Assembly (NCBI GenBank): GCA_021107855.1
Contig: JAIORZ010000011.1
Span: 71,686 to 135,685 of the forward strand
DNA: 64,000 nt
Origin: an archaeon
GTDB lineage: Archaea > Nanobdellota > Nanobdellia > Pacearchaeales > GW2011-AR1
Reading direction: 5' to 3'
Shown: piece after piece, positions 15,146 to 64,000 of the stretch
Layout of the letters: each line of letters begins with the position of its first letter
How positions within the stretch are numbered: position 1 is the first letter of the stretch
Program-made: the position numbers and the translations under genes
Notes under the pieces: model-generated
Database searches by the model: none
What the model saw: the letters and a program-made list of their open reading frames with translations, nothing else
What the model was told of the DNA's origin: nothing

Positions 15146-15251
15146 TTTACTATTTGTTGTCACTCTGCTGTAGTATCTTTTAAATAAATTTTGTGGAACA
15201 ACTGATTTTGAAAAGTTATTTTTTATGCAAAAATCCGACGGGAGTAATAAT

Positions 15252-15260
15252 GTTTATAAG
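15252..15260 (+). promoter_or_regulatory. TATA box for giant protein A gene
   Basis: GTTTATAAG is centred about 32 bases before the ATG at 15288. It lies after the in-frame ATG at 15225, so that earlier codon would not be in the message. Confidence 0.5.
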
Positions 15261-15287
15261 TTGGTTGTTCTACAAATTTGTAGTCTT

Positions 15288-36200: not shown

Positions 36201-39200
36201 GGGACAACTGATTTGAATTATATGTTTGGTTCCGCCTCGGCCTTTAACGGCAACATTTCAACTTGGAATGTGTCAAGTGTTACGGACATGAGTTTTATGT
36301 TCCAGTATGCCTCGTCTTTCAATGGTAGTTTGTCGAGTTGGGATGTATCAAGTGTTACAACTATGAATAGTATGTTTTATGCTGCCAATTCCTTTAATAG
36401 TAGCTTGTCAAACTGGGACACATCAAGTGTCATAAATATGAATAATATGTTTACCAATAATCCAATCTTCAACGGCAACATATCAACTTGGAATGTTTCG
36501 AGCGCCACAATCATGAGTGGTATGTTCTATAATGCCGATGCTTTCAATGGTGATATGTCAAACTGGGATACCTCGAGTGTTACGACTATGGCTTCTATGT
36601 TTCACTCTAATTCAGGTTTCAATGGAGACATATCAAGCTGGGATACCTCAAGCGTCATAGCCATGAATTCTATGTTTCAGTCTGCCTCAGCCTTCAATGG
36701 TAATTTGTCAAATTGGAATACGTCGAATGTTTCAACCATGCTTTCTATGTTTGAATCCGCCACAGCCTTTAATGGCAGTTTGTCAAATTGGAATACGTCA
36801 AATGTTACAACGATGTATAGGATGTTTTATGGCACTCCGGTCTTCAATAGTAACATATCAAATTGGGATACCTCAAAGGTCGAGAACATGGATTCTATGT
36901 TCCGCTCTACTTCAGCATTCAATAGTAACATATCAAACTGGGATGTATCAGGTGTCACAGATATGGATTATATGTTTTATTCTGCCTCAGCTTTCAACGG
37001 TGATATATCAGATTGGAATACTTCAAGTCTTATGTATATGAGCGGCATGTTCTATAACACCTTGGTCTTTAATAGTAGTTTATCAAACTGGGATATTTCA
37101 GGCGTTGTAAACATGAATGATTTATTTCGTTCTACCTCAGCCTTTAATAATAACATATCAAGCTGGAATGTATCAAAAATTGGAAGTATGCATTCTATGT
37201 TTCGTGATGCTACGGCCTTTAATGGTGACATATCAAATTGGGACACCTCAAGTCTTACAACCCCGGGCGCCATGTTCTATGGCGCTACAACCTTCAACGG
37301 CAACATATCAAATTGGAATATGTCAAAAGTTGGAAGTTTTGATTATATGTTCTATGGCGCTACAACCTTCAACGGCAATATATCAAACTGGGACACGTCG
37401 GGTGCTACAGGTATGAGTTATATGTTTCAATCTGCCACGGCTTTTGACCAAGACATAGGGGGCTGGAATGTTTCGGGGGTTACAACTATGACAAATATGT
37501 TTCTCAATGTCAAGTTGTCTCCTGCTAATTATGACTCTTTGCTTATCGGTTGGGACAATTTGTCGAGTTTGCAGAATACTGTTACATTTGATGCTGGGAA
37601 TAGTCAATATTGTTTAGGGAATGATTCTAAGCAAAATATTATTGGGAATTATAGTTGGGTAATAACAGATGGAGGGATGAATTGCACTCTTCCTAATATC
37701 ACGGATATCATCATCATCAACGAATCGGGTGTTGTGGATGGAACTATTGGTAGAGGAGATAACGTGACGATTAACGTGACTTTGGAAGATGAGTATGGGA
37801 TTGATAAGGTTTGGGTGAAGGTTTGGGAGGGAGCTGTTGGGATTTCGAGTGTGCTTTATGAGGGTTTCTTGACTTTGATTGGGGCGTTTTGGACTGTGAC
37901 ATTTGGGACGAATTCGAGTTTTAATTTAGGGGAGGTTAATTATACGATTTATGTTAATAACAGCGAGGGGGAGGAGGTTAATGAAAGTGGGAATTTTACT
38001 CTTAGTGATTTGTCATGTGATTATTCTTGTGTTAATTGTTCAGATTGTACGGCTAAAATAGCGGCAGCGAGTGCGGGTGAGACGGTTTGTCTTTCTCAGG
38101 ATATTAATGATGCGACGACTTCTGATTGTATTGATATTGATACTAATGGCATAGAATTTAATTGTCAGGGTAATTTGATAGATGGTAATGATGCGGCTGA
38201 CCGGGCGATAAATGTCCAGAGGGGTTCAAATGAAAATACAAGTGTTACTATTGCAAACTGTGTGTTTTCTGGCTGGGATACTTCAACCATCCAACTTTAT
38301 TATGCGTGGAATAATACCTTGAGAGATATCGATATTATTAGGCAGGCAACGACTAATTATGAGTATGGGATATATCTTTATTATGCCTGGGATAATTTGA
38401 TTGAGGATTTTGATATTAATGAAACATACGGGGGAATCAGTATCACACGGAGCGAAAATAATGATATTAGGAATGGAACTATCAGGGATTCGGGGGCAGG
38501 AATAGGAATAGGAAGTCTTTCCGACTACAATAATATCACGGATGTCTCATTTGAAAATTGTAGCGAAAATGGTATAACAATATCTAGCGGTTGTGATTAT
38601 ATTAATATTGTGAATGCAACGATTAGTGATAGTCAGCAGTATGGTATTAATATTGCGTCGGTTGGTTCGCTAATTGCTAATTCAACGATTACCGGTAGTG
38701 GTTGGGCTGGAATCAGAAATGACCCAGGTGCTTCGTCGAGCATTTATAATAATTATTTAAACAATTCCAATAATATTTTTAATTATGATGGATCGGCAGT
38801 AACCAATTATAATAGTAGTGGGGCAGGAACAAATATTATTGGCAATTCGGGTATAGGTGGGAACTTTTATGCGAATCCTTCCGGGACAGGATTTTCGGAA
38901 ACATGTAATGATAGCAATAGCGATGGTTTTTGTGATATTGCGTTCGTTCATGAATATAATAATTATGACTTGTTGCCGTTGACTTCTGTTGGGAATAATC
39001 CTACGATTAATTATTCTGTTGATGGATGTTATGTTGTGAGCCAGTCTGGTTATTATAATTTGACAGGAAATATAACTAATTCGTATTTTTCAAATTGTAT
39101 TAATCTGCAGTCGGATAATGTGACGTTTGATTGTAAAGGTTTTTATGTGAATGGAAATATTGGGGCGCAATCTCGTTATGGAATGCTTTTCGCAAGGGAT

Positions 39201-42200
39201 AATTATGATTATGCGAATGTGACTATAAAGAATTGTAATTTCAGTGGATGGGCTGTGAGTGCGATAAGGATAGTATATATGGGGGGGGTAGAGATTGAGG
39301 ATTCAAATTTTTATGAACCTGCTAGTGGCGATATGACAATAGATTTACGGTATGGGAATAATATTACATTTGATAATGTCTGGGCTGAAAACCAGTGGTA
39401 TCCGCTCTATTCAGATTATGCTGATAACATAGTTATAAGAAACAGTAGATTTAATTCAAGTAGCTCTGGACTTAGGTTTAATAGTGCTGATAATTTGACA
39501 ATAGATAATACGACTTTCTATGATTCGTCTAGGGGAATATATCTAAGTGGCGGTGATAATATCATTGTGAACCATAGTAATTTCACAAATTGCGCAGGGA
39601 ATGCGATAGAAAAAACATCGGGCAAGATTGAAGTTCATGATACGCATTTTGAAAATAATGGGCGTGCATTTAGAACAGGAGGTGTGATGGAGGGCTCAAT
39701 CTTTGAATCCAACCATATTCTCAACAGTACTTTCCAGGGGGTTAGTTATGGGACAACCAGCGGAACGCAAGATTCATGGCATAATAATTATTTTAATAAT
39801 TCCCAAAATTTTTATTTTACAAGTTATTCATCGGAGTTTCAATTAAATACTTCTAACCAATCGAAATTAAATATTATAGGAAACATGAGTTATGGGGGGA
39901 ATTTTTGGGCCCAGCCAAATGGTCTTGGATTTTCGGAGACTTGTAGTAATTTGGATGGAGATGGTTTTTGTGATGATGATTATTGGATACAGGGCACTGC
40001 GGTGGATATGTTAGCTTTAGTAAATAAGTCCCAGAACCAGACGACAAATTTGACGGGGTGTATGGCGATTCAAACTCCAGGTTATTATACCCTTGCGAAT
40101 GATATAGATAGTGATGCGGCGGAGATATGTATTGATATTGCGTCTGATGATGTAATATTAGATTGTAAGGGTCATTCCCTTGATGGAAATGGAGTTGGGC
40201 TGAAAGGAATTTATGCGTCAAGAGCGGTGCAAGTTTCGGCAAATATTACAATTATGAATTGTACTTTATCGTCATGGACGCAAGAAAATATATATTTAGG
40301 AAGGGTAGATGATGTTGGAATTTTTGATGTGGTGAGTGCCAATACGTCGGGGGGTTCTGATGAGTGTATTTATTTAGCATTTTCAGATAACCTTATTTTA
40401 GAGAATGTAGATTTGGATGATTGTTATATAGGTCTGCTTACTCAGTATAGTGAATCGCAAAATATTACTAATGTCAATATTAGTGCAACTTATATAGGAT
40501 TATATCTGGCATCACCCTCGACAAATCATTATATCGATTCGGTTAATACTGAAGGGGGGACATATGGTATTTGGGCCTATGGGGATAATCATGTTCTCAA
40601 GAACGTCAAAATAAATGGTTCGACAACTGGTTTTAGGATGCAAACAGCAGATAATATTTTGTTGGATAATCTGACGATATACGATTGTACCACGGGGTTA
40701 TATTATTATTCTAATATTGATAATGCAACGCTTGCGAATAGTACGATAATGGATTGTTCTTCGTGGGGTGTTTACATAGCTACTTCTGGGGCGACTAATC
40801 CGAACATATTTACAAACAACTTTTTCAATAACACTAATAATGTTCAGTTTGCCGGAACAATTTATAATAATACATGGAATCAGAGTAAAACTTTAGGAAC
40901 TAATATATTTGACGGTCCTTATCTTGGGGGGAATTATTATGCGACGCCTAGTGGGACGGGACATTCTGAGGTTTGTAATGACACTAGTCTGGTGGATGGT
41001 ATCTGTGATGAGTATTATAATTTGTCTGCTGGCGGGAATAAGTCGATTGATTGGTTGCCGTTGACTAACTATACTAACGTTCCTCCGAATATTACGGATA
41101 TCATCATCATCAACGAATCGGGTGTTGTGGATGGGACAATTTTACAGGGAGACAATGTGACGATTAATGTGACTCTGGAGAGTGAGTATGGAATTGAGAA
41201 GGTTTGGGTGAAGGTTTGGGAGGGGGTTGTTGGAGCGAGTAGTGTTCTTTATGAGGGGTTCTTGACTTTGGTTGGGGCATTTTGGACTGTGACGTTTGGG
41301 ACGAATTCGAGTTTTGGTCCTGGAGAGGTTAATTATACGATTTATGTTAATAATAGTGGAGCGGAGGAGGTGAATCAGAGTGGGAATTTTACTATTAGTA
41401 CTGATAATTTTGCGCCGAATGATGTGACACTGGTCTTAGTTTCTGTTGATGATTTAAATTTGACGACGAGTGATTTGAATTGTTCTGGGGTCGTTAGCGA
41501 TGATGATGGTGATAGTTTGAATGTTTCAGTGAGGTGGTATAAGAATTCAGTTTTGAATTTGTCGGTTAGTTATAATAATGATTATACGAATGGGACGGAG
41601 TTTAGTGCGATTTTGAATTCTGGGAATACGAGCAAGGGAGAGGATTGGAATTGTTCTGTTCGGGTTTATGATGGAGTGGGATATGGTAATTGGAGTAATT
41701 CTAGTGAATTGGAAATTTTAAATACTTTACCGACGGTGAGTTTGGATATTCCTGATGATTGGAATTCGACAACGAATAGGACGCCGGAATTTAGTTGGAT
41801 GGGTTATGATGCGGATGGGGACAGTATGACTTATGAGATTAATATTAGTGAGCATTTGTTTGCGGGGGCTAAGTTCTGTAATGACGATAGGTCGAATGAT
41901 AGTTTAAGTTCGGAATCCCATATCCCTTCTAGTGATTTGCTTTGTTTGCATGATAATGGTTATTATTATAATTGGTCGGTTAGGGCGCATGATGGGACTG
42001 GCTGGGGAGAGTGGTCGAGTATTTGGCATCTGAATGTGACGGCTGAAATTGATGTGAATTTGAGTGTTAATGATGTTAGTTTTGGTTCGTTAGATTTGGG
42101 GGAGATTGAGAATACGAGTGATGATAACCCGGGTCCTTTTGTGTTGGATAATGATGGTAATGTCGTCGTGAATATTTCTATTAATTCGTCGCAGTTGTGG

Positions 42201-44665: not shown

Positions 44666-44724
44666 GAAGTTTTTCAGGGATGGGGACGGAAGGGCTTGGC
44701 GATTAAACATTGAGGAGATGGAAA

Positions 44725-45282
44725 ATGAATAAACATATTTTGGGTCGCTCGGCAGACTACAGATTGCTTGATGGCTCTGCGCACCCCAAATTGCGGAGTA
44801 AGGGGGCGAGCTCTGTGGCCAAGATTGATGTGATTGTCGTCGTCGTTAGTTTGGTGGTTTTGATGGGGTTAGTAGGCTATGCTCGACCGTTGGTGATCGC
44901 GCCGATTAATGATTTCGAGAGTTTGGATGGGAATATTTTATTTAGTTTTGAGCGGGCTGATATTTTGTTGGTTGATGATAATTTGGATTTTACGACGCCG
45001 GATGAGTATCGAGTTGTTGCGGGTGAAAAAATTAAGTTGGAGCCTGGTGTTTATTATTGGAAAGTAAGTGGGGTCTTGGGGAGTGAAATTCGTAAGTTGA
45101 CGATTAAGTCTAGGGTTGAGCTGGAGTTGGTTGAGACAGAAGAGGGGATGGCGGTTGTTAATTCTGGGAATGTCAGGTTGAATGTGGATGTTTATGATGG
45201 GGACGAGTTGGTTGAGAACAAGAAGCTGGGTGTTGGCGAGATTAGTGGCGAGGGAGATAAATTTGTTGGTGAGATGGAATGA
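44725..45282 (+). CDS. Small membrane-anchored beta-rich protein
   Basis: This 185-residue protein starts at the ATG at 44725, about eight bases after GGAG. The N-terminal 33 residues are basic and cytoplasmic, one transmembrane helix spans about 34-53, and the exported part is beta-rich with LEPGVYYWKVSG and a VVNSGNVRLNV segment, similar to fibronectin/Ig-like folds. Its stop overlaps the start of the 395-residue gene by four bases, so the two are probably translated together. I do not recognise a named family. The nearby surface genes suggest a role in assembly or anchoring. Confidence 0.75.
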   Translation: MNKHILGRSADYRLLDGSAHPKLRSKGASSVAKIDVIVVVVSLVVLMGLVGYARPLVIAPINDFESLDGNILFSFERADILLVDDNLDFTTPDEYRVVAGEKIKLEPGVYYWKVSGVLGSEIRKLTIKSRVELELVETEEGMAVVNSGNVRLNVDVYDGDELVENKKLGVGEISGEGDKFVGEME

Positions 45283-46466
45283 GGGAGTTTTTGATTTTGC
45301 TGATTGGGATTTTTATGGTCGGAGGTGTTTTGGCTTTAGGTATTACGCCGGCTCGGACGACGCTTGATTTTGAGAAGAAGATGGAGAAGAGTGTTGGATT
45401 TGATATTTTGAATGCTGGTGGGAATGATATTAAGGTCGTGTTTTCGGCGCAGGGTGATTTGGCTGAGTATATTTCGTTGCCGGTGAAGGAGTCTGAGATT
45501 TTGGGGAGCGAGAAGAGCAAGAGTTTTAGTTATGAGTTGAATTTGCCGTCGGAGCTTGAGCCTGGACTTCATACGGGTGAGATTTTTGCGATGCAGTTGC
45601 CAAGTGGGGCGAGTAGTGAGGGGTCGCAGATTTTAGCGACGCTGGCTGTTGTTACGCAGGTTCATATTTATGTTCCTTATCCTGGGAAGTATGCGAGCGC
45701 GAAGTTGTATGTTTATAGTGCGAATGTTGGCGAGGAGGTTAAGTTTGTTATTCCGGTTATTAGTGCGGGGAAGTTTGATTTGAGTTCGGTTAGGGCGAAT
45801 GTTGATATTTATAATAAGATGGGGGAGAAGTTGGAGAGTTTCGGAACGGATTCTGTTAGTGTTACGAGTGGGACTAGGAAGGAATTGGTGTATAACTGGA
45901 GGGCGAATGTTGCGGTTGGGGAATATCTTGCTAAAGCCGTGATAGTTTATGACGACGGGACGATTTCGTTGGAAGAGAAATTTAGTGTTGGAAGCGAGGA
46001 GTTGGAGTTGCAGGAGATTGTAGTTGGTGGGTTTAGTTTGGGTGAGATTGCGAAGTTGGAGATGTTGGTTGAGAATAAGTGGGGAGAGACGATTAGTGGG
46101 GCGTATATTGAGACAAAGATTAAAGATGATGAGGGGGATGTTGTTTCGAGCTTTGAATCGGCTGCTCAGAATATTGCGGCGTTGAGTAAAGAGATTTTTG
46201 TTTCGTATTGGGATACTGCGGGAGTTCGTGAGGGAGATTATGATGCTGAGGTTTCGATTAATTATGGGGAGAAGACGAGTAAGAAGAATTTGAGGTTTGA
46301 GGTTAGTGAGAATGAGTTGATTATTATTGGTTTGGGTTATGTGATTTCTGCGGATGGAAACGGAAGTTCTGATGCGATTATTGTTGTCTTGGTGATTGTC
46401 ATCGTGTTGTTGGTTTTGTTGAATTTACTGTGGTTCTTTTTGCTGAGGAAGAGGCTGAAAAGGTAG
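45279..46466 (+). CDS. C-terminally anchored Ig-like partner protein (copy 1)
   Basis: This 395-residue protein has a signal peptide (about 1-19) ending before GITPARTTLDF, two or three Ig-like beta domains (FSYELNLPSELEPGLHTGEI, VHIYVPYPGKYASAKLYVYSANVGE, EISLGEIAKLEMLVENKW-type segments), a C-terminal transmembrane helix (about 368-390) and a basic cytoplasmic tail RKRLKR. It is a clear paralogue of the 396-residue gene at 57890. The order of a lipid-facing anchor behind extracellular Ig-like domains recalls bacterial DUF916/DUF3324 proteins that display WxL proteins; this is an analogy, not a database match. It ends the giant-A operon. Confidence 0.8.
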   Translation: MREFLILLIGIFMVGGVLALGITPARTTLDFEKKMEKSVGFDILNAGGNDIKVVFSAQGDLAEYISLPVKESEILGSEKSKSFSYELNLPSELEPGLHTGEIFAMQLPSGASSEGSQILATLAVVTQVHIYVPYPGKYASAKLYVYSANVGEEVKFVIPVISAGKFDLSSVRANVDIYNKMGEKLESFGTDSVSVTSGTRKELVYNWRANVAVGEYLAKAVIVYDDGTISLEEKFSVGSEELELQEIVVGGFSLGEIAKLEMLVENKWGETISGAYIETKIKDDEGDVVSSFESAAQNIAALSKEIFVSYWDTAGVREGDYDAEVSINYGEKTSKKNLRFEVSENELIIIGLGYVISADGNGSSDAIIVVLVIVIVLLVLLNLLWFFLLRKRLKR

Positions 46467-46826: not shown

Positions 46827-49800
46827 ATGAAAGAGCGTGGATATTTTTTGTTATTTGTAGGGTTTTTGTTGGCTGGTTTGTTGTTCGTTTCTGGTGGGAT
46901 TAGTAGCACTAATTATAATATTGATTCTTTGGTTGTTTCGAGTGGGGGAGATAATGTTTCTTCTAGTGGCTTTAGTTTGAAAACGATTGTTGGGATGATT
47001 TCGGGGGCTTTGAGTTCTATTAATTTTTTGAATGATATTGGGTTTTATTATGCGACTACTATTGCTGGTGGTTCGGGATGTACTAGTTGTTCGGGTTGTA
47101 ATAGCGAGATAGCTGCTGCGGGCTCGGGGGATACGGTGACGCTTGGTGCGGATATTTCTGGGCAGGATGGGAATTGTATAGAATTCGCGGGGAAGGATGA
47201 TGTGACGTTTGATTGTGATGGGTATGCGATAGGGGGAGATGGGGATGGCAGTGGAGTGGGCGTGTATTTTGATTTTAATTCGGAGAATGATACTCTTAAA
47301 AATTGTATAAATATTAGCGGGTTTTATCGTGGAATCCATTTGTATGGTTCCCCAAATAACACCCTAATTAATAACACGGTAGCAAATAATTCGGGTCATG
47401 GAATCTATGTTGAAGGTTCTTATGACAATATTCTAATTAATAACACAGTAACAAATAATTCGGGGCAGGAGATTCGTCTTGATTCTTCTCAAAGGAATAA
47501 TTTAACTAACAATACTGCTATAAGTGATTCAAGTATTGGAATCTATCTTTCCTCTTCCTCAAACTACAACATTTTAATATCTAATACCGGAACAAGCAAT
47601 TCAAACTATGGAATTTATATTTATTCTTCCTCAAATTATAATAATTTAACCAACAACATCGGGATAAGTGATTCAAGTTATGGAATTTATGTTAATTCTT
47701 ACTCGAATTATAACAATCTAACTAATAACAACGGAACAAGCAATTCGGGTCGTGGAATTACTCTTGGTACCTCCTCAAATTATAATACCCTAACCAACAA
47801 CACCGGAACGAGTGATATAGATTGGGGGATCTATCTTTATTCTTCTTCAAATAATAATCTGACTAACAATACAGGTATAAGTAATTCAAATATTGGGGTT
47901 ATTCTTTCTACTTCTTCAAATAACAATATTTTAATTGGCAATAATGGAACAAGTGATTCAAATATTGGAATTTATCTTTCTACTTCTTCAAACAACACCC
48001 TAACCAACAACACCGGGATAAGTAATTCAAGTCATGGGATTTATCTCTCTACTTCTTCGGATAATAATTTAACGGATAATAATGGAACGAGTAATTCAAA
48101 TAGTGGAATCTATCTTGCTACTTCTTCAAGTTATAATAATCTAATCAATAATACCGGAACAAGTAACGCAAGTTATGGAATTTACATTCGAAGTTCTTCA
48201 AATTACAATGTTTTAACCAATAACACCGGAATAAGTGATTTAAATCATGGAATCTATCTCGAAACTGTTTCAAATAATGTATTGTTTTCTAATACGGGAA
48301 ATTGCACGGGAAGTGTCTTTGCTGCGAAAAGTGGGATAAGATTAAATGGTGCTAATTATAATAATCTTACAAATAATATTGGGGATACGGTTGATAATCA
48401 GGGAATATATATTATTGGGTCTTTGAATAATACTCTAACTAACAACATCGGGAGGGCTGATACAAGCTATGGAATTTATGTCCATTCCTCTTCGGGCAAT
48501 AATCTAACTAACAACACCGGGACGAGCAATTCGGGTGAGGGAATTTATCTTGCTTCATCTGCGAACGACAATATCTTAACTAATAATACCGGGACAAGTG
48601 ATTCAGATTATGGTATTTATATTCTTTCCTCTTCGGGCAATGTATTAATTGATAATGTTGCAAGGTCGGAAAGTTATAGAGGATTAGGACTTTCAGTTTC
48701 AGATTATAATTCAATTTCAGGATTAAATGCGAGTGTGACTTCTGGAGGTTATGGGGTATATTTTAATGATGCTGCTTATAATAATTTTAGTGACTCCGTT
48801 TTTATTAATGCGTCGACGGATGTTTATGTTGAGTCTGCTGCCTCTTCCGTTGATAATATTTTCCTGAATTGTTCTTATGATACGGAGTCGGTAGCTGGGG
48901 CGGCGAATTCTTTGATTAGGCAGTGGTGGTTTGGGGTTTATGTTAATGATTCAGTTGGGGCGGCGGTGAATGGGGCGAATGTTAGTGGGTTTAATTCGAG
49001 TGAGGATTTGCAATTTTCGGTTTTGACTAATTCGAGTGGCTGGATAGATAAGTTGGGGATTACTGAGTATGTTAATATTGGGGGGAGTGTTTCTTCTTAT
49101 TCGAATTATAAGATTAACGCGTCGGAGGGGGCGAAGACTGGTGAGTTGACTGGGTATAATGTGAGTGAGGTTTTGAACAAACTTGATAACGTGATTACGA
49201 TTGAGGACCTTTCTGCTTATTTTAATTCTCGATGGGATACTACTGAAACTTCTACGGGTTCATCTAATAGCACTTCGATTAAATTGCCGTTGGAAGATGG
49301 GGGGAATTATGATTTTGTTGTTGATTGGGGAGATGGGAATAGCACGACCGTTACTACGTATGATAGTGTGAATGCGACGCATGATTATTTAGTGGAGGGA
49401 ACGTATAATGTTTCTATTTCGGGGACCATTGAAGGATTTAGGTTTAATAATGGGGGGGATAGGCAGAAGATTATGGATATAAGTCAGTGGGGGGATTTAA
49501 GGGTGGGGAATAATAATGGTTATTTCTATGGGTGTGATAATTTAGTTGGAACTGCTGAAGATGTTTTGAATTTGAGTGGGACGACAGATTTAAGTTATAT
49601 GTTCTGTGGCGCATCAATCTTCAACAGCAATCTATCAACCTGGAACACATCAAATGTTACAAATATGAATTATATGTTTGCTTCTGCCTCAGCCTTCAAT
49701 GGCAACATATCCAACTGGGATGCTTCAAGTGTCACAAATATGAGTTATATGTTCTATGGTGCCTCAGTCTTCAATGACGATTTATCAACTTGGAACACAT

Positions 49801-52800
49801 CAAGTGTTACAGAGATGGATTATATGTTTCGTGGTGCCTCAGCCTTCAATGGTAATTTATCAACCTGGAACACATCAAGTGTTACAACCATGCGAACTAT
49901 GTTTTATTTCGCCACAGCCTTCAATAGCGACATATCAACCTGGGACACATCAAGCGTCACAACCATGAGAGAGATGTTTCGTGGTGCCTCAGCCTTCAAC
50001 GGCAATATATCAAACTGGGACACATCAAGCGTTACGACTATGAATCAGATGTTTGTTTCTGCCTCAGCCTTCAACGGCAATCTACCCAACTGGAACACAT
50101 CAAGTGTTGAAGATATGTATGCTATGTTTTATTTAGCCACCTCTTTTAATGGCAATCTATCAAACTGGGAGACATCAAGTGTTGAAGATATGTATGCTAT
50201 GTTTTATTCCGCCACAGCCTTCAATGGCAATATATCAAACTGGGATACCTCAAGTGTTATGACTATGTATTATATGTTTGGTTCCGCCACAGCCTTCAAT
50301 GGCAATATATCAACCTGGAACACATCAAGCGTCACAAATATGGATTATATGTTTCATTCCGCCACCTCTTTCAATCAAAATATTAGTTCCTGGGATGTCT
50401 CGGGTGTTACAACTATGTCTTCTATGTTTTATGGCGTTACTTTGTCCCTAGAGAATTATGATTCGTTGCTTATTGGTTGGGAAAGTTTGCCTTCTTTACA
50501 GAATTCTGTGAATTTTCATGGTGGGAATAGTCAGTATTGTTTGGGGGCTGATGCGAGGCAGGGGCTGAATGACAGTTGGGATTGGGTGATAACGGATGGG
50601 GGGATGAATTGTACGCTTCCGAATATTACAGATATCATTGTTATTAACGAATCAGGCGTCGTGGATGGGGATATTGTTAGGGGGGATAACGTGACTATCA
50701 ATGTGACCCTGGAAGACAATTACGGGATTGATAAGGTTTGGGTGAAGGTTTGGGAGGGGATTGTCGGGGCGAGTAGTGTGCTTTATGAGGGGTTCTTGAC
50801 TTTGATTGGGGCGATTTGGACTGTGACGTTTGGGACGAATTCGAGTTTTAATTTGGGGGAGGTTAATTATACAGTTTATGTTAACAACAGCGAGGGGGAG
50901 GAGGTTAATGAGAGTGGGAATTTTACTATCATTCCTGTTTCTTGTGTCAATTGTTCGGATTGTAATAGTAAGATAGCTGCTGTGGGCTCGGGAGATACGG
51001 TGACGCTTGGTGCGGATATTTCTGGGCAGAATGATAATTGTATAGAGTTCGCGGGGAAGGATGATGTGACTTTTGATTGCGATGGGCATAAGATAGTAGG
51101 GGATTGGGATAGTACTGGAAATGGAATTTATTTGTCTACTGACTCGGATAATAATATTATTAAAAACTGTGTCAATATCAGTGGATTTCGGCGTGGAATC
51201 TATTTTTATTTTTCCGATAACGGCACCCTAACCAACAACACCGCAACAAATAATTCAAATATTGGATTTTCTTTTTATTATTCCGATAACGGCACCCTAA
51301 CCAACAACACTGTAAATAATTCAAATACTGGAATCTATTTTGGTTATTCTCCAAACAGCACTCTAACCAACAACACCGTAATAAGCACTTCGGGTTATGG
51401 AATTAGTTTTGTCTCTTCTTCAGACAGCACTCTAATTAACAACACCGCAACGAGTAATACAAGTTCTGGAATTTATTTTTCCACTTCTTCAAATATTATT
51501 TTAACCAATAATATCATAACAGGTAATTCGGCAAGTCCTGGAGTTGGCTTTACCACTTCTTCAAATAACACTTTAATCGACAACACCGTAACAAGCTCAG
51601 GTATTGGGATTCAGCTCGCTACTCCCTCAGACAGCACACTAACCAACAACACAATAGACAGTTCAAGTTATGGAATTCATTTTACTAGTGCTTCGAATGT
51701 CACCCTAACTAACAATATTGTAACAAGTAGTTCAAGTTATGGAATTCTTCTTCAAACTGCTTCAAATATGACACTAACCAACAACACCGTAACGGCTAGT
51801 TCGCAAGCAGGAATGTATCTTGACGGATTGTCTGACAGTATCCTAACCAATAACACCGCAACGAGTAATACAAATTATGGGGTTTATCTTATTTCCTCCT
51901 CAAATAATGTATTAGTTGACAGCACTGTAAAATCGGAGAGTAATCATGGATTTTTAATTCATGCTTCAGATTATAATTCAATTTCAGGATTAAATGCAAG
52001 TACAACTTCTGGAGGTTTTGGAATATATTTCCAGGATGCCGCTTATAATAATTTTACCGATTGTGTTTTTATTAATGCGTCTACGGATGTCTATATTGAT
52101 ATTACTGCTGGTTCTAATGACAATATTTTTCTGAATTGTTCTTATGATACAGAGTCGGTGAGTGGGGCGGCGAATTCTTTGATTAGGCAGTGGTGGTTTG
52201 GGGTTTATGTTAATGATTCAGTTGGGGCGGCGGTGAATGGGGCGAATGTTAGTGGGTTTAATTCGAGTGAGGATTTGCAATTTTCGGTTTTGACTAATTC
52301 GAGTGGCTGGATAGATAAGTTGGGGATTACTGAGTATGTTAATATTGGGGGGAGTGTTTCTTCTTATTCGAATTATAAGATTAACGCGTCGGAGGGGGCG
52401 AAGACTGGTGAGTTGACTGGGTATAATGTGAGTGAGGTTTTGAACAAACTTGATAACGTGATTACGATTGAGGACCTTTCTGCTTATTTTAATTCTCGAT
52501 GGGATACTACCAAGGTTGGTGTGTCCAATAGCACTACAATTAAATTGCCATTGGAGAATGGCGGGAATTATGATTTTGTTGTTGATTGGGGAGATGGTTC
52601 GGATGATACGATTACTGCATATGATCAGGCTGAGGTTACACATAATTACGGAGTGGAGGGAACGTATAATGTTTCTATTTCGGGGACAATAGAGGGATTT
52701 AGATTTAATAACGGGGGGGATAGGTTGAAGATTTTGGATATAACCCAGTGGGGAGATTTAAGGATTGGAAATAATAGTCGTTATTTTTATGGTTGTAGTA

Positions 52801-55800
52801 ATTTGGATGTGAGTGCGACGGACGCTCTTGATTTGAATGGAACGACTGATTTGAGTTATATGTTTTATTCTGCCACATCTTTCAATGGTAATCTATCAAA
52901 CTGGAATACATCAAAAGTCACAGACATGAGTTATATGTTTTATTATACTCTGGCTTTCAATAATGACATATCAGGTTGGGACACCTCAAGTGTTACAACT
53001 ATGAATCATATGTTTTATATTGCCGCAGCTTTCAACGGAGATTTATCAAACTGGAATACATCAAAAGTCACAGACATGAGTTATGCGTTTACTTCTGCCA
53101 CATCTTTCAATGGTAATCTATCAAACTGGGATACTTCAAGCGTCACGACTATGAATTCTATGCTCCGTGATGCTCCAGGCTTTAGTGGTGATATATCAGG
53201 TTGGAACACATCGAAAGTCACAGACATGAGCCGTATGTTTTATTGCGATCCTTCCTCATACTTCAATAGCGACATATCAGCCTGGGACACATCAAGCGTC
53301 ACAGACATGAGTTATATGTTTTATAAGGCCGACAGATTCAATCGCAACCTATCAAACTGGGACACATCAAGCGTCACGACCATGACTGGTATGTTCAATT
53401 CTGCCTTAGTCTTCAACGGTGATTTATCAAACTGGAGCACTTCAAATGTTACAACTATGTATGCTATGTTTTATGATGCTGCAGATTTCAATCGCAACTT
53501 ATCAAACTGGGATACTTCAAGTGTTGAAGATATGTATGGTGTGTTTTATGGTGCCTCAGACTTCAATGGCGACGTATCCAACTGGAACACATCAAACGTC
53601 ACAAGCATGAATCGCATGTTCGGTCAGACTACAGTCTTTAATGGTAACTTATCAAACTGGGACACTTCAAATGTCGTAGATATGCGATGGATGTTTTATC
53701 TTGCTACATCCTTCAATAGTAGTATATCAAATTGGAATACCTCAAATGTTGCGTATATGAGCTATATGTTTTCTTCTGCCGTAGCTTTCAGTAGCGATTT
53801 ATCTAACTGGAATACCTCAAATGTCACAAATATGGATTCTATGTTTTCTTCTGCCACAGTCTTCAATGGTAATATATCAAACTGGGATGTGTCAAACGTT
53901 GAAAGTATGTATCAGATGTTTCATTCTGCCATAGCTTTTGACCAGGACATAGGGGATTGGAATGTTTCGAAAGTCACAGCTATGACCAATATGTTTAACA
54001 GCGTTGCTCTGTCGACGGAAAATTATGATTCGTTGCTTATTGGTTGGAATAACTTATCTCTTTTGCAGAATGATACCGTTTTTAGTGGCGGAGATAGTTA
54101 CTATTGTTTGGGGGGTGATGCGAGGCAGGGCTTGAATGATAGTTGGGATTGGACGGTGACGGATGGGGGTTATAATTGTACTCTTCCCAATATTACAGAT
54201 GTTATTGTTATTAACGAATCGGGTGTTGTGGATGGAACTATTATCAGGGGGGACAATGTGACTATTAACGTGACCCTGGAGGATGAGTATGGGATTGATA
54301 AGGTTTGGATAAAAGTTTGGGAGGGGGTTGTCGGAGCGAGTAGTGTTCTTTATGAGGGGTTCTTGACTTTGGTTGGGGCATTTTGGACTGTGACGTTTGG
54401 GACGAATTCGAGTTTTAATTTGGGGGAGGTTAATTATACGATTTATGTTAATAATAGCGAGGGGGAGGAGGTTAATGAAAGTGGGAATTTTACTATTGAG
54501 AATTTTGCGCCGGTTATCAATTCTTCGAGGATTTATTCTGTTTCGAATACGACGACTCATGATTTGCTTGGATATTGTAATGGGTCGGATCCTGAAGGTG
54601 AGAATTTTACATATTATTATAAGTGGTATAAGAATGATGTGGTCAATACGACGGGGGATGTGATAAATGATTCGGACTCGGAGGTCAATGTTGATAATAT
54701 TTCGTCTAGCTTGCTTGGCATTGGTGATAATTGGACGTTGTCTTGTCTCGTGGGAGATGGTTCAGAAAATTCTAGTTGGCTTAATAGTTCGGAAGTTCAT
54801 ATTCATCAGGGCTGTGCTGTGTTCAATGAACCTGGAGTGTATGCGCTGACAAAGAATCTTAGTTCGTCTGGGACGTGTTTTGAGATAAATGTTAGCAATG
54901 TAACGCTTGACTGTCAGGATTATGCTATTGCTGGGAACAGTACGGGGTCAGCAGTTTGGATGCATGGGGTGTATGGGAATAATTTGTTTAATGTAACAGT
55001 TAGTAATTGTCTTATGGAGAATTTTAGTTATGGACTTAGGGTTGATTATACTAATGATTCGTTGGGGGAATTTATTGATGTATCTTCTATGGATTATCCT
55101 ATTTATTTGTATGCTGGTGGCGACAATAGGATAGTAAATGTAAGTTTGAATGCTAGTTCGTATGGTATCCAGATTGGTTCATCCCGTAGCAACAATATTA
55201 CTAATATGACATGTTATGGTGCCAGTGCTACTTATGGTGTGTATTTGAACGGTGCTGACCTGAACAGATTTAATGGGATAATAATGATTGATTCGTCGAG
55301 GGGGTTGTTTATATTCGGAAATTCGGGACAGAACATATTTGAGAATTTTATAATTTCCGATGCTACTGTATATGGAATTAAGGTAGATGCTACTGGTAGC
55401 ACGCAGAATATTTTTAGGAATGGTACTATCTTAAGGGCTGAATGGGGTATAGCTATCGATTATCTGGCAAATGAGAATGAGTTTTATAATATAAATATTA
55501 GTGACAGTACTGGCTATGGGGTATACTTTGAGCATCCTTCTTCGGGTGATAATATATTCTATAACAACTACTTCGAAAATGATTTCAACTTCAGAATGGT
55601 CTCTGGTTCGGACCATTACTGGAATACATCAAACACAACAGGACCCAACATTGTTGGCGGTGCAAATATCGGGGGGAATTATTGGACGGTTCCGGGTGGA
55701 TTAGGATATTCGGATGTATGTGATGATGATGACAGCGACGGGTTTTGTGATAACCCATATGTTATGGAACAAGGGGAGACTGATTATTTGCCTTTGGCTG

Positions 55801-57893
55801 GCACAGGGGATACTAATCTTAGTAGTTGTACGATAATTGCGACACCCGGATTGTTTAATCTTACAGATGATATCGATAATGCATCAGATACCTGCATGAT
55901 AATAAGGAGCAGTGATGTTGTGTTTGATTGTCTTGGGCATTATATTGATGGAGAGGATACAGGAGATGGTATATTCGTTGATGGAGAGTACGAATCCGAG
56001 TGGAGTAATATTACTATTGGGAATTGTGAGATTAGGGAATTTAGTAGGGGTATGTACGTAGAATATGCTCAGGATTCGAGATTCGAGAATATAACTATAT
56101 ATGATAATCCGTCCCAGGGTCTATCAACATCAAGTACAGTTAATGTAAACTATACTAATATTACAGCTAGCGGAGGTTCATATCCAGGATATTTCACCGC
56201 TGATTCGAATATTATAGTGAGAGAATCTGAGTTTTATAACGGGGGAGGTGCAGCTGTGGTCATCACTTCTGACGATTCAGAATTCAGAGATTCTACGTTT
56301 AAGAGTTGTTCAGGCACATGCTTAACTGGCAATATCTATCTAAATAGTGCAGATGGTAATTTGTTTTACAATATTACTGTATCGAATAGTACAGACAGAA
56401 ACTTTTATTGGTTTGCTTCAGATAATAATAATATGACCAAGTCATACATATCCGACGGGGCGGACGGTATTTATATGAGGGGCGGTTCCGTTGGTAATAA
56501 TTTTTATGAGAATAATTTTTCGGACCACAGCTCATATTCGATTGAGTTTAGGAATGAAGGTAGTAATGATAATAATAAATTCTACAATAATTACTTTTGG
56601 AATACCGGTAATAATTTTGTTTATGCTCCGATAGCTGGAAATGACAATGATTGGAATGTGAGCAAACAATCTGGTACAAACATAATGGATGGAATTTATA
56701 TTGCTGGTAACTTCTGGGACAATTCAACAGGTGGATATTCTACATTATGTACGGACAGCGAAGGTGACGGCTTGTGCGATGATTCCTATTTACTTGATAA
56801 CGACCAGACTGATTATTTGCCGTTGACTTATTATACTAATAGTCCTCCGAATAATGTAACGGTGAGTTTACTTTCAACGGATGGTTTGAATTTGACGACG
56901 AGTGATTTGAATTGTTCGGGGGTTATTAGTGATGAGGATGGAGATGATTTGAATGTTTCTGTGAGATGGTATAAGAATTCGATTTTGAATTTGTCGTTTA
57001 GTTATAATGATTCTTATACGAATGGGACGGAGTTTAGTGCGATTTTGGATTCTGGGAATACGACTAAGAATGAGGTTTGGAATTGTTCGATTCGTGTTTA
57101 TGATAGTCAAGTGTATAGTGGTTGGGGGAATTCTAGTGAATTGGAGGTTTTGAATAGTTTGCCGACGGTGATATTGGTTGCTCCGACTGACTGGAATGAT
57201 AGTACGAATCGGAGTTTGGAGTTTAATTGGAATGGGAGTGATGATGATGGGGATAGTTTGACTTTTGAAATTACTATTGGGGAATATAAATTTGAGGGGA
57301 GTGATGTTTGTAGCGATGATAGGTTGAATAGTAGTTTGAATGAGGAGAGCTATGTTCCTTCGAGTGATTTGTATTGTTTGCATGATAATGGGTTTTATTA
57401 TAATTGGTCGGTTAGGGCGCATGATGGGGTCGGATGGGGAGTGTCGTCGGATGTTTGGCATTTTAATGTGACGGCTGAAATTGACATAAATTTAGATATT
57501 GACGAGGTTAATTTTGGGTCGCTTTCGCCTGGGAATATTAATGATAGTAGTGATGATAATCCGAGTCCGTTTGTGATTGATAATAATGGGAATGTCGTGA
57601 CGAATATTAGTTTGAATTCTTCGGCGATTTGGAATACGGAGTCTGGTGATAGTTCGTATTATCAGTTTAAGGTGGATAATGTGACGGGGGAAGAGGGGGC
57701 GTTTGATTGGTTGCTTTCGATTGTGAGTTGGTTTGATGTTCCGATTACTGGTGAGGTTGTTGCTGTGGGTGAGTTGAATTATGCCGACGGGGATGATAGT
57801 GCTGAGGTTGATATTAGGTTGGAGGTTCCTGGTGATGAGAGTCCTGGGGCTAAAAATGGGGCGATTGTGTTTAAGGGGGTGTTGGCGGAATGA
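46827..57893 (+). CDS. Giant modular surface protein B (3688 residues)
   Basis: A signal peptide of about 26 residues is followed by a short exported domain (YNIDSLVVSSGG...GFYYATT). Modules by base: beta-helix 47.1-48.9 kb made of roughly 23-residue TNNTGTSxSxxGIYL repeats; Ig-like 48.9-49.2; 11 BspA repeats 49.6-50.4; Ig-like 50.6-50.9; beta-helix 50.9-52.1; Ig-like 52.15-52.5; 15 BspA repeats 52.9-54.0; Ig-like 54.2-54.8; two beta-helices 54.8-56.8, each with a CxDxDGxCD cap; Ig-like 56.8-57.5; the shared C-terminal domain. It lacks the LamG modules and N-terminal anchor of protein A. Sequons are very dense, so heavy N-glycosylation is likely. The stop overlaps the start of the partner gene by four bases. 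Confidence 0.92.
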   Translation: MKERGYFLLFVGFLLAGLLFVSGGISSTNYNIDSLVVSSGGDNVSSSGFSLKTIVGMISGALSSINFLNDIGFYYATTIAGGSGCTSCSGCNSEIAAAGSGDTVTLGADISGQDGNCIEFAGKDDVTFDCDGYAIGGDGDGSGVGVYFDFNSENDTLKNCINISGFYRGIHLYGSPNNTLINNTVANNSGHGIYVEGSYDNILINNTVTNNSGQEIRLDSSQRNNLTNNTAISDSSIGIYLSSSSNYNILISNTGTSNSNYGIYIYSSSNYNNLTNNIGISDSSYGIYVNSYSNYNNLTNNNGTSNSGRGITLGTSSNYNTLTNNTGTSDIDWGIYLYSSSNNNLTNNTGISNSNIGVILSTSSNNNILIGNNGTSDSNIGIYLSTSSNNTLTNNTGISNSSHGIYLSTSSDNNLTDNNGTSNSNSGIYLATSSSYNNLINNTGTSNASYGIYIRSSSNYNVLTNNTGISDLNHGIYLETVSNNVLFSNTGNCTGSVFAAKSGIRLNGANYNNLTNNIGDTVDNQGIYIIGSLNNTLTNNIGRADTSYGIYVHSSSGNNLTNNTGTSNSGEGIYLASSANDNILTNNTGTSDSDYGIYILSSSGNVLIDNVARSESYRGLGLSVSDYNSISGLNASVTSGGYGVYFNDAAYNNFSDSVFINASTDVYVESAASSVDNIFLNCSYDTESVAGAANSLIRQWWFGVYVNDSVGAAVNGANVSGFNSSEDLQFSVLTNSSGWIDKLGITEYVNIGGSVSSYSNYKINASEGAKTGELTGYNVSEVLNKLDNVITIEDLSAYFNSRWDTTETSTGSSNSTSIKLPLEDGGNYDFVVDWGDGNSTTVTTYDSVNATHDYLVEGTYNVSISGTIEGFRFNNGGDRQKIMDISQWGDLRVGNNNGYFYGCDNLVGTAEDVLNLSGTTDLSYMFCGASIFNSNLSTWNTSNVTNMNYMFASASAFNGNISNWDASSVTNMSYMFYGASVFNDDLSTWNTSSVTEMDYMFRGASAFNGNLSTWNTSSVTTMRTMFYFATAFNSDISTWDTSSVTTMREMFRGASAFNGNISNWDTSSVTTMNQMFVSASAFNGNLPNWNTSSVEDMYAMFYLATSFNGNLSNWETSSVEDMYAMFYSATAFNGNISNWDTSSVMTMYYMFGSATAFNGNISTWNTSSVTNMDYMFHSATSFNQNISSWDVSGVTTMSSMFYGVTLSLENYDSLLIGWESLPSLQNSVNFHGGNSQYCLGADARQGLNDSWDWVITDGGMNCTLPNITDIIVINESGVVDGDIVRGDNVTINVTLEDNYGIDKVWVKVWEGIVGASSVLYEGFLTLIGAIWTVTFGTNSSFNLGEVNYTVYVNNSEGEEVNESGNFTIIPVSCVNCSDCNSKIAAVGSGDTVTLGADISGQNDNCIEFAGKDDVTFDCDGHKIVGDWDSTGNGIYLSTDSDNNIIKNCVNISGFRRGIYFYFSDNGTLTNNTATNNSNIGFSFYYSDNGTLTNNTVNNSNTGIYFGYSPNSTLTNNTVISTSGYGISFVSSSDSTLINNTATSNTSSGIYFSTSSNIILTNNIITGNSASPGVGFTTSSNNTLIDNTVTSSGIGIQLATPSDSTLTNNTIDSSSYGIHFTSASNVTLTNNIVTSSSSYGILLQTASNMTLTNNTVTASSQAGMYLDGLSDSILTNNTATSNTNYGVYLISSSNNVLVDSTVKSESNHGFLIHASDYNSISGLNASTTSGGFGIYFQDAAYNNFTDCVFINASTDVYIDITAGSNDNIFLNCSYDTESVSGAANSLIRQWWFGVYVNDSVGAAVNGANVSGFNSSEDLQFSVLTNSSGWIDKLGITEYVNIGGSVSSYSNYKINASEGAKTGELTGYNVSEVLNKLDNVITIEDLSAYFNSRWDTTKVGVSNSTTIKLPLENGGNYDFVVDWGDGSDDTITAYDQAEVTHNYGVEGTYNVSISGTIEGFRFNNGGDRLKILDITQWGDLRIGNNSRYFYGCSNLDVSATDALDLNGTTDLSYMFYSATSFNGNLSNWNTSKVTDMSYMFYYTLAFNNDISGWDTSSVTTMNHMFYIAAAFNGDLSNWNTSKVTDMSYAFTSATSFNGNLSNWDTSSVTTMNSMLRDAPGFSGDISGWNTSKVTDMSRMFYCDPSSYFNSDISAWDTSSVTDMSYMFYKADRFNRNLSNWDTSSVTTMTGMFNSALVFNGDLSNWSTSNVTTMYAMFYDAADFNRNLSNWDTSSVEDMYGVFYGASDFNGDVSNWNTSNVTSMNRMFGQTTVFNGNLSNWDTSNVVDMRWMFYLATSFNSSISNWNTSNVAYMSYMFSSAVAFSSDLSNWNTSNVTNMDSMFSSATVFNGNISNWDVSNVESMYQMFHSAIAFDQDIGDWNVSKVTAMTNMFNSVALSTENYDSLLIGWNNLSLLQNDTVFSGGDSYYCLGGDARQGLNDSWDWTVTDGGYNCTLPNITDVIVINESGVVDGTIIRGDNVTINVTLEDEYGIDKVWIKVWEGVVGASSVLYEGFLTLVGAFWTVTFGTNSSFNLGEVNYTIYVNNSEGEEVNESGNFTIENFAPVINSSRIYSVSNTTTHDLLGYCNGSDPEGENFTYYYKWYKNDVVNTTGDVINDSDSEVNVDNISSSLLGIGDNWTLSCLVGDGSENSSWLNSSEVHIHQGCAVFNEPGVYALTKNLSSSGTCFEINVSNVTLDCQDYAIAGNSTGSAVWMHGVYGNNLFNVTVSNCLMENFSYGLRVDYTNDSLGEFIDVSSMDYPIYLYAGGDNRIVNVSLNASSYGIQIGSSRSNNITNMTCYGASATYGVYLNGADLNRFNGIIMIDSSRGLFIFGNSGQNIFENFIISDATVYGIKVDATGSTQNIFRNGTILRAEWGIAIDYLANENEFYNINISDSTGYGVYFEHPSSGDNIFYNNYFENDFNFRMVSGSDHYWNTSNTTGPNIVGGANIGGNYWTVPGGLGYSDVCDDDDSDGFCDNPYVMEQGETDYLPLAGTGDTNLSSCTIIATPGLFNLTDDIDNASDTCMIIRSSDVVFDCLGHYIDGEDTGDGIFVDGEYESEWSNITIGNCEIREFSRGMYVEYAQDSRFENITIYDNPSQGLSTSSTVNVNYTNITASGGSYPGYFTADSNIIVRESEFYNGGGAAVVITSDDSEFRDSTFKSCSGTCLTGNIYLNSADGNLFYNITVSNSTDRNFYWFASDNNNMTKSYISDGADGIYMRGGSVGNNFYENNFSDHSSYSIEFRNEGSNDNNKFYNNYFWNTGNNFVYAPIAGNDNDWNVSKQSGTNIMDGIYIAGNFWDNSTGGYSTLCTDSEGDGLCDDSYLLDNDQTDYLPLTYYTNSPPNNVTVSLLSTDGLNLTTSDLNCSGVISDEDGDDLNVSVRWYKNSILNLSFSYNDSYTNGTEFSAILDSGNTTKNEVWNCSIRVYDSQVYSGWGNSSELEVLNSLPTVILVAPTDWNDSTNRSLEFNWNGSDDDGDSLTFEITIGEYKFEGSDVCSDDRLNSSLNEESYVPSSDLYCLHDNGFYYNWSVRAHDGVGWGVSSDVWHFNVTAEIDINLDIDEVNFGSLSPGNINDSSDDNPSPFVIDNNGNVVTNISLNSSAIWNTESGDSSYYQFKVDNVTGEEGAFDWLLSIVSWFDVPITGEVVAVGELNYADGDDSAEVDIRLEVPGDESPGAKNGAIVFKGVLAE
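48897..49243 (+). repeat. 347-bp block duplicated at 52164-52510
   Basis: The sequence encoding GAANSLIRQWWFGVYVNDSV through the start of the next BspA module (AYFNSRWDTT) appears identical, base for base, to 52164-52510, at a constant offset of 3267. The modules on both sides differ. Recent duplication or gene conversion is the simplest explanation. Confidence 0.9.
49599..50423 (+). repeat. 11 tandem 75-bp units (BspA/DUF285-type), giant protein B, first array
   Basis: Eleven 25-residue units of exactly 75 bases each, starting at the ATG at 49599 and ending before MFYGVTLSLENYDS. Several neighbouring units are close copies at the DNA level, so the number may change by unequal recombination. 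Confidence 0.93.
52164..52510 (+). repeat. Second copy of the 347-bp block from 48897-49243
   Basis: This is the Ig-like linker between the second beta-helix and the second BspA array of giant protein B, apparently identical to the linker before the first array. Confidence 0.9.
52860..53990 (+). repeat. 15 tandem units (BspA/DUF285-type), giant protein B, second array
   Basis: Fourteen units of 75 bases plus one of 81 bases (the unit MFYCDPSSYFNSD, two residues longer and carrying a cysteine). The sum reaches 53990 exactly. This is the only length variant seen in the four arrays. Confidence 0.92.
57472..57893 (+). other. Conserved C-terminal domain of giant protein B
   Basis: This runs from TAEIDINLDI through VNFGSLSPG, NNGNVVTNISLNSS, DWLLSIVSWFDVPITGEVV to GVLAE. 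It aligns without large gaps with the end of giant protein A, while the modules before it differ. The following ATGATGAGAAAG start of the partner gene overlaps its last codons. Confidence 0.75.
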
Positions 57894-59080
57894 TGAGAAA
57901 GTTTCTTATTTTGTTGGTTGGGGTTTTTATGATGAGTGGGGTTTTAGGGTTTGGGATTAGTCCGGCTCGGACTACTTTAGATTTTAAGGCTGGGATGGAG
58001 AGAGATGTTTCGTTTGATGTTATTAATTCGGAAGGGGAGGATATTTCGTTTGTGTTTTTGGCGCAGGGAGATTTGGCTGAGTATATTTTTTCGGATGTTA
58101 GTAGTGGGTCGATTTTGGCGTCGGAGAAGAGTAAGAGTTTCAGTTATAGTTTGAAGTTGCCGGAGCTTTTGGAACCTGGGCTTCATAAGGGGGAGGTTGT
58201 TGTTATGCAGTTGCCAGATGAAGGGAGTGGTCAGGGGTCACAGGTGTTGGCGACGCTGGCTGTTGCGACGCAGATTTATCTTTATGTTCCGTATCCCGGG
58301 AAGTATGCGAATGCGAAGTTGTATGTTTATAGTGCGAATGTTGGCGAGGTGGTGAAGTTTGTTATTCCGGTTAGTAGTGCTGGTGAGTTTGATTTGACTT
58401 CGGTTAGGGCGAATGTTGATGTTTATGATAAGGCGGGAGAGGTTGTGGATAGTTTTAATGTTGGTCCGATTGCTATTCCGAGTGGACAGCAGAGGGAGTT
58501 GGTTTATGATTGGGATGCGGATGTTCCTATCGGGGATTATGTCGCGAAGTCGACGGTTGTTTATGGCGATGGGACGGTTTCGCTGGAAGAGAAGTTTAGT
58601 GTGGGGAGTGAGAAATTGGTTTTGCAGGAAATTTGGGTTGATGATTTTAGTTTGGGCGAGATTGCGAAGTTGGAGATGTTGGTTGAGAATAAGTGGAGTG
58701 AGAAGATTGCTGATGTTCTTATTAAGACTAAGATTTCGAACGAGAGGGGAGGAGTTGTTTCTGAGTTTAAGTCGTCGGATTATGATGTTGGTGGGTTTTC
58801 GAAAGAGGTTTTTGTTTCGTATTGGGATACGGCGGGGGTTATTGAGGGGGATTATGATGCGGAGGTTTCGATTAAATATGGAGATAAGGAGAGCAGGGAG
58901 AATTTGAAGTTTGAGGTTAGTGAGAATGAGTTGGTTGTTATTGGTTTGGGTTATGTGATTTCGGCTGATGACGGGGTTGGTCCTGATGCGATTGTTGTTG
59001 TGTTGATGAGTGCTGTTGTGTTGCTGATTTTGTTGAATTTGTTGTGGTTTTTGTTGTTGAGGAAGAGGTTGGGGAAGTAG
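57890..59080 (+). CDS. C-terminally anchored Ig-like partner protein (copy 2)
   Basis: This 396-residue paralogue of the gene at 45279 has the same order: signal peptide (MMRKFLILLVGVFMMSGVLG), FGISPARTTLDF, Ig-like domains with YVPYPGKYANAKLYVYSANVGE and SLGEIAKLEMLVENKW, a C-terminal membrane helix and basic tail RKRLGK. It overlaps the giant-B gene by four bases, so the two proteins should be made in a coupled way. This immediate pairing suggests that it holds or escorts giant protein B at the cell surface through its C-terminal domain. That function is inferred from the arrangement and from analogy with WxL-binding DUF916 proteins. Confidence 0.82.
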   Translation: MMRKFLILLVGVFMMSGVLGFGISPARTTLDFKAGMERDVSFDVINSEGEDISFVFLAQGDLAEYIFSDVSSGSILASEKSKSFSYSLKLPELLEPGLHKGEVVVMQLPDEGSGQGSQVLATLAVATQIYLYVPYPGKYANAKLYVYSANVGEVVKFVIPVSSAGEFDLTSVRANVDVYDKAGEVVDSFNVGPIAIPSGQQRELVYDWDADVPIGDYVAKSTVVYGDGTVSLEEKFSVGSEKLVLQEIWVDDFSLGEIAKLEMLVENKWSEKIADVLIKTKISNERGGVVSEFKSSDYDVGGFSKEVFVSYWDTAGVIEGDYDAEVSIKYGDKESRENLKFEVSENELVVIGLGYVISADDGVGPDAIVVVLMSAVVLLILLNLLWFLLLRKRLGK

Positions 59081-63349: not shown

Positions 63350-64000
63350 ATGAAGAGATGTGTATATTTTGTGATTTTGGTTTTTTTATGTAGTGGTGCT
63401 TTGGCTCTCGAGGGGGTTGTGCCTGGGAGTTATGATGTTGAATTTGAGCCTGGGCTTGAGAGGGATTTTGTTTTTGATTTTGTTTTAGATGGCAAGGAAG
63501 AACTGTGGGTTGAGGGGGATTTGAGTGAGTATGTTGAGTTAGATAAGTTGGAGATTATGGGGAGGGGGGATGTTGTTGTGCATATGAAGTTGCCAGAGAG
63601 TTTGGAGAAGATTGGTGCGAATGAGGTTTGGGTTGTTGCGGGGGGTGTTAGAGGTTTGATTAGGGTTAATGTTGCTTATCCTGAGAGGTTTGTTGGGTTG
63701 GAACTTAGTGCGCCTAATGTGAATTTGGGTGAGGATGTTGAATTGAAATTGAAGGTTTTGAATTTAGGGAGGGAACGGGTTTTTGTGAATCCTAGTATTT
63801 TGATTTATAATCCTGACGGGGGATTGATTGAGGATGTTCCTTTCGAGGGTGGTTGGGTTAATATTTCTGGTGTTTTGAATTTTGAGGGAGTTTTAGTGAC
63901 TAGTAATTATTCTGCGGGGGATTATTTGGCTGTCGCTAGGGTTGATTATGGTGATGGGGTGATTAAGGAGGAGAATGTTTTTCGATTGGGGGAGTTTGGG
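63350..64000 (+). CDS. C-terminally truncated third partner-type Ig-like protein
   Basis: The frame is open to the right edge, giving 217 codons. The ATG at 63350 follows the preceding stop by 21 bases. A signal peptide (MKRCVYFVILVFLCSGALAL) leads into VVPGSYDVEFEPGLERDFVFDF, EGDLSEYVELDK, VNVAYPERFVGLELSAPNVNLGEDVELKLKV and GDYLAVARVDYGDG. These match the order of segments in the 395- and 396-residue paralogues (QGDLAEY, YVPYPGKYASAKLYVYSANVGE, VGEYLAKAVIVYDDG), though more divergent. The expected C-terminal membrane helix lies beyond the window. Confidence 0.8.
   Translation, partial: MKRCVYFVILVFLCSGALALEGVVPGSYDVEFEPGLERDFVFDFVLDGKEELWVEGDLSEYVELDKLEIMGRGDVVVHMKLPESLEKIGANEVWVVAGGVRGLIRVNVAYPERFVGLELSAPNVNLGEDVELKLKVLNLGRERVFVNPSILIYNPDGGLIEDVPFEGGWVNISGVLNFEGVLVTSNYSAGDYLAVARVDYGDGVIKEENVFRLGEFG

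Follow-up and report, generated by a model that had tools for sequence, protein, structure and literature searches.

A WxLIP-like membrane protein as the probable surface anchor of giant proteins in a DPANN archaeon

The 64 kb stretch of DNA analysed here (the window; contig JAIORZ010000011.1) belongs to the 0.94 Mb genome of a DPANN archaeon and encodes two giant proteins, A and B, that end in a common C-terminal domain (CTD), together with membrane proteins built of immunoglobulin (Ig)-like domains, which we term partners. Because the partner adjoins the giant genes and is distantly related to the WxL-binding protein of Gram-positive bacteria (WxLIP), it probably tethers the giants to the cell surface through their final 140 residues. 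We consider it likely that the partner is a distant WxLIP-type membrane receptor and that the locus encodes an archaeal, peptidoglycan-free variant of WxLIP-type display. The variant would be new; no description of WxL or DUF3324 proteins in archaea was found in the papers searched. The reading bears on how uncultured DPANN archaea keep secreted proteins of very large size attached to the cell, and hence on how they may grip a host cell. With a recognisable receptor and a likely ligand domain, found in roughly half of the genomes sampled from the phylum, this question becomes testable with two short recombinant proteins. If the reading is correct, the WxLIP family, known from bacteria as peptidoglycan-linked, extends to archaea, which have no such wall.

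Architecture of the giants and partners

The features on which the analysis rests are as follows.

15225..42461, + strand: giant A, 9078 residues; N-terminal membrane segment, LamG, DUF285 (BspA-type) and NosD/beta-helix arrays, CTD
42039..42458, + strand: CTD of giant A
45279..46466, + strand: partner A, 395 residues; 66% identical to partner B; PF11797 match, E = 2.3e-4
46827..57893, + strand: giant B, 3688 residues; cleavable-looking signal peptide, DUF285 (BspA-type) repeats, NosD/beta-helix arrays, C-terminal CTD
57471..57890, + strand: CTD of giant B, 140 residues, C-terminal; proposed partner ligand
57890..59080, + strand: partner B, 396 residues, WxLIP-like; signal peptide, domains D1 (residues 20-134), D2 (134-241) and D3 (241-347), membrane helix (367-395), basic tail
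57947..58291, + strand: D1 of partner B; the family D1 profile matches WxLIP PGBD/DUF916 (hhalign 87%, E = 3.9e-6)
58181..58288, + strand: strand-hairpin-strand of D1 in partner B, residues 98-133, with a disordered tip (113-120); candidate counterpart of the WxLIP hairpin (PMC10599100)
58289..58612, + strand: D2 of partner B; the family D2 profile matches WxLIP HBD/DUF3324 (hhalign 95.5%, E = 1.4e-8)
58610..58930, + strand: D3 of partner B; tandem homologue of D2 (99%) with a weak HBD match (74%; PF11797 E = 1.3e-3)
63350..64000, + strand: partner C; the ORF (open reading frame) is cut by the window end (345 residues in full, locus L090); 29% identical; D1 hairpin deleted; no adjoining CTD gene

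The giants share a C-terminal domain without a membrane helix, as the preliminary description had stated. The two CTDs are 74% identical over 140 residues and extend to the very C-terminus. Hydrophobic stretches are missing near this end of both giants: the peak 19-residue Kyte-Doolittle mean in the final 300 residues is 1.5-1.6, compared with 3.0 for the partner helix. Within the genome of the window DUF285 is confined to the frames of giants A and B. The probable true start of giant A is at 15291 (MSYKRVVKKNGKVYGPYVYES...), so that the protein would begin with a cytoplasmic part of about 45 residues, followed by a membrane segment, and would have no cleavable signal peptide (15225-15420). 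N-glycosylation sequons occur at about 5 per 100 residues in the giants (457 in A and 193 in B); partner B has none.

The C-anchored, Ig-like protein that had been described as overlapping giant B was likewise confirmed. The ORF of partner B starts 4 bp before the end of the giant B stop codon, and its AlphaFold2 model (21 input sequences; mean predicted local distance difference test score, pLDDT, of 82) shows three beta-sandwich domains between a signal helix and a C-terminal helix, the latter spanning residues 367-395. The protein ends in the tail LLRKRLGK, so that signal peptide, C-terminal membrane helix and basic tail are all present, as in WxLIP. Two further paralogues are encoded in the window, in agreement with the earlier count: partner A, two genes after giant A, and partner C. 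A fourth is found elsewhere in the genome.

Remote homology of the partner to WxLIP

Profiles of the partner, from which the signal peptide and membrane helix had been removed, were compared using hhalign with profiles of reference WxLIP and WxL proteins taken from plasmids of food and environmental Bacillota. D1 and D2 together align with DUF916 plus DUF3324 over 211 collinear columns and in the same domain order (97.1%, E = 7.5e-11). The controls remained far lower, with 2.5-9% for crossed domain pairs and at most 3% both for reversed profiles and for other Ig/Fn3 families taken from the giants. The partner can thus be called WxLIP-like on the basis of remote sequence homology of D1 and D2.

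The Pfam model of WxLIP_HBD points in the same direction. PF11797 (WxLIP_HBD, DUF3324) is the most frequent, if weak, Pfam match of the partners (12 of 34); those in the window score 19-21.5 bits against a cut-off of 28.9. Across the survey sample of 279 genomes from the same phylum this family exceeds its cut-off only three times, in each case within a partner and in genomes other than that of the window. PF06030 (DUF916) gave no match in the Pfam scans of the partners.

Pairing of partners and CTD proteins across the phylum

The CTD is not restricted to giants. Large CTD proteins have open frames of up to 9,660 codons, and iterated searches also identified small secreted proteins, about 190-260 residues long, in which the CTD is the sole domain. 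Profile searches of the survey sample found the partner in 148 genomes and the CTD in 115, with both in 113 and neither in 129 (Fisher p = 1.6e-43). Co-occurrence beyond this locus had been set in advance as a test of the proposed pairing, and the pair proved to be widespread in the phylum. Of the 124 CTDs listed for genomes that also have a listed partner, 94 are within the distance threshold of 1.5 kb from a partner, and all 94 are on the same strand. The pairing of CTD and partner is therefore more than chance and recurs across the phylum. In the genome of the window itself (G000), a small CTD protein (C2:121668-122120) and a small-type partner (C2:147569-148702; L088 and L089) are separated by about 25 kb, an arrangement that most relatives do not share.

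A typical full locus has a large-CTD gene, an accessory gene and a partner, then a small-CTD gene and a second partner. In some 20 large loci the gaps in large-CTD/partner pairs are -3 to 15 bp. The two types of cargo are also reflected in the phylogeny. In a tree of 91 partners, those with large-CTD and those with small-CTD neighbours separate with three changes of cargo type, compared with about 25 when the labels are shuffled; cognate pairs thus appear to have stayed together while most of the group diversified. One apparent natural CTD-partner fusion (L086:4945-6576), a single stop-free frame running from a small CTD into a partner, was dropped; because its leader lies in a different frame, it may be a fusion, decay, a frameshift or an assembly error.

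The D1 hairpin

AlphaFold2 complexes of WxLIP show a DUF916 hairpin passing from disorder to order and contributing a strand to WxL (PMC10599100), and the title of PDB entry 9i25 describes WxLIP bound to a long WxL protein. A hairpin is also present in the archaeal partner, at the position aligned with that of WxLIP, and residues 113-120 are disordered in the model. All 68 partners encoded directly behind a CTD gene have a hairpin segment of 31 residues or more. In six partners, including partner C, only a tight turn of 19 residues is left, and no CTD gene precedes any of these. Since the hairpin occupies the aligned place and is kept behind CTD genes, we infer that it grips the CTD while the membrane helix holds the giant. 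One hairpin-less protein, L068:7667-8773, sits in the large-type clade, yet its D1 resembles that of its neighbour, which suggests recombination between adjacent partner genes.

Proposed mechanism and alternatives

In the proposed mechanism, Sec would export giant B and, likewise, giant A, whose partner is partner A. The partner would be anchored by its C-terminal helix with the Ig domains outside, and the flexible D1 hairpin would bind the giant by its CTD, in the way predicted for the WxLIP hairpin and WxL. The giant would then be held non-covalently at its C-terminus, with the DUF285, beta-helix and LamG arrays pointing outwards, probably for adhesion. Giant A may be held at both ends, because it has its own N-terminal membrane segment besides the CTD. 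The second partner clade would serve the small CTD-only proteins.

Several observations weigh against this reading. hhalign gave only 0.3-1.1% for CTD against WxL, and PF13731 (WxL) had nothing above its cut-off across the survey sample. No relation was detected with 27- and 91-member profiles, with large-type WxL alone or with our own profile alignment against shuffled nulls, and the two Trp-x-Leu motifs of the WxL domain are absent from the CTD alignment. The AlphaFold model of the CTD (pLDDT of 50) is too poor for fold comparison, which makes a Foldseek search with it meaningless. A match of the CTD to an enterotoxin chain in a PDB sequence search (E about 0.02) was judged to be due to chance. 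On the sequence evidence the name WxL domain is not appropriate for the CTD. The bacterial large WxL proteins are themselves barely reached or missed by the WxL Pfam model; for this reason the missing signal is compatible with a shared fold, which we do not claim.

On the partner side, the WxLIP motif NQIDKxxxYFDLK, found near the PGBD N-terminus, is absent from the partner alignment. In a Foldseek search with the partner model, WxLIP chains (9i25_C, 9i1y_A and 9i1y_B) reached ranks 18-22 of 350,542, with unrelated multi-Ig chains beside or above them; because these other proteins are many, the template-modelling (TM) scores low and Ig folds generic, the result is only consistent with a WxLIP relation. 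Moreover, in 35 genomes the partner profile finds a match, in many cases a weak one, but the CTD profile finds none. Finally, five of the six hairpin-less partners form one clade and the sixth, L068:7667, is a probable recombinant, so that independent hairpin-loss events are few. The earlier proposal of a counterpart of WxL/DUF916 display is supported for the partner, by profile homology, PF11797, conserved neighbourhood and, weakly, the fold search; its extension to homology between CTD and WxL is not supported.

Three other explanations were considered. Partners and CTD proteins could be expressed together as components of an adhesive coat or surface layer, attached separately and with no dedicated contact between CTD and partner. 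The N-terminal membrane segment of giant A would keep it on the cell regardless, two relatives of the partner match the NCBIfam putative S-layer model NF033506 and the locus is rich in Ig-type proteins. However, the two partner clades track two cargo types, indicating specific pairing, small CTD-only proteins adjoin partners too and the hairpin is absent only where a partner has no CTD neighbour; we regard this explanation as unlikely. The tight gene coupling noted above (-3 to 15 bp) would also suit a one-to-one helper, and DUF916 has been described as requiring stabilisation by WxL (PMC10599100). The partner might then be a chaperone, tethered to the membrane, that helps the C-terminus of huge exported proteins to fold or be secreted and later releases these proteins. 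This is very unlikely, given that the locus has no enzyme or usher, that for WxLIP, its nearest relative, a structure in complex with WxL has been solved (PDB 9i25 title) and that CTD proteins of 200 residues would scarcely need help.

Slightly less probable again is polymerization of the CTD proteins by pilin- or TasA-like strand exchange, with the small CTD proteins as subunits and the partner as membrane base or cap. Small CTD proteins are single-domain, at times in tandem (L070), and have a beta-prone segment directly after the N-terminal membrane helix, as such subunits might. Pfam and PDB searches detected no TasA or pilin relation, though, and the giants have a single CTD, at the very end, and their own partner clade.

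Returning to retention by a WxLIP-type receptor, the case for a broader claim seems evenly balanced: that peptidoglycan-independent WxL/WxLIP-type display is widespread in DPANN, with receptor clades for giant and small ligands, and hence is older or more mobile than Gram-positive walls, the CTD being a functional counterpart of WxL that has either diverged beyond recognition or replaced it.

Comparison with known systems

WxLIP (PF06030 plus PF11797; PDB 9i25/9i1y; Hassan et al. 2023, PMC10599100) and the partner have in common a signal peptide, a PGBD-like followed by an HBD-like Ig domain, a C-terminal helix and a basic tail, as well as, within the first domain, a flexible hairpin whose positions align. 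Both are encoded next to large and small secreted proteins with a common C-terminal domain, which here is the CTD and not a recognisable WxL. The partner differs in being archaeal, with a third Ig domain (a second HBD copy), no NQIDKxxxYFDLK motif and about 13% identity. It also has no peptidoglycan to bind, and forms two clades, one per cargo size.

WxL proteins (PF13731) likewise have a C-terminal domain of similar size in large multi-repeat and small domain-only proteins, and the large ones may carry DUF285, whereas the CTD has neither WxL motifs nor a detectable sequence relation. DUF285 repeats are also present in a bacterial large WxL protein adjoining DUF916 (L169); the parallel in cargo is real, although not diagnostic. 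WxL proteins have roughly 500-1000 residues, compared with CTD frames of up to 9,660 codons. The giant membrane-anchored proteins of Nanohaloarchaeota (SPEARE type; PMC10266531) are also adhesive surface proteins of 9,000 residues from DPANN archaea. These have their own transmembrane and ATPase domains after the Ig array, whereas giant B has no C-terminal helix and seemingly needs a separate anchor.

Accessory and neighbouring genes

44710..45282, + strand: accessory protein, 190 residues as called; N-terminal membrane helix and small beta domain

In many loci this gene lies between the large-CTD gene and the partner, and its product is possibly a third component of the system. Homologues of about 160 residues (L055:8009-8485, L057:12055-12543, L059:13837-14313 and others) have, in the small beta domain, an NxGNVxLNV motif that resembles part of the CTD. 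The iterated hidden Markov model of the accessory gene drifted into CTDs, and among its matches only those ORFs with the expected length and location were retained.

Two further secreted proteins adjoin the giants, one with PKD and beta-helix domains (42458-44665) and one with LamG (59136-61607). They have a common dockerin-like C-terminal end, which may be another sorting or docking domain.

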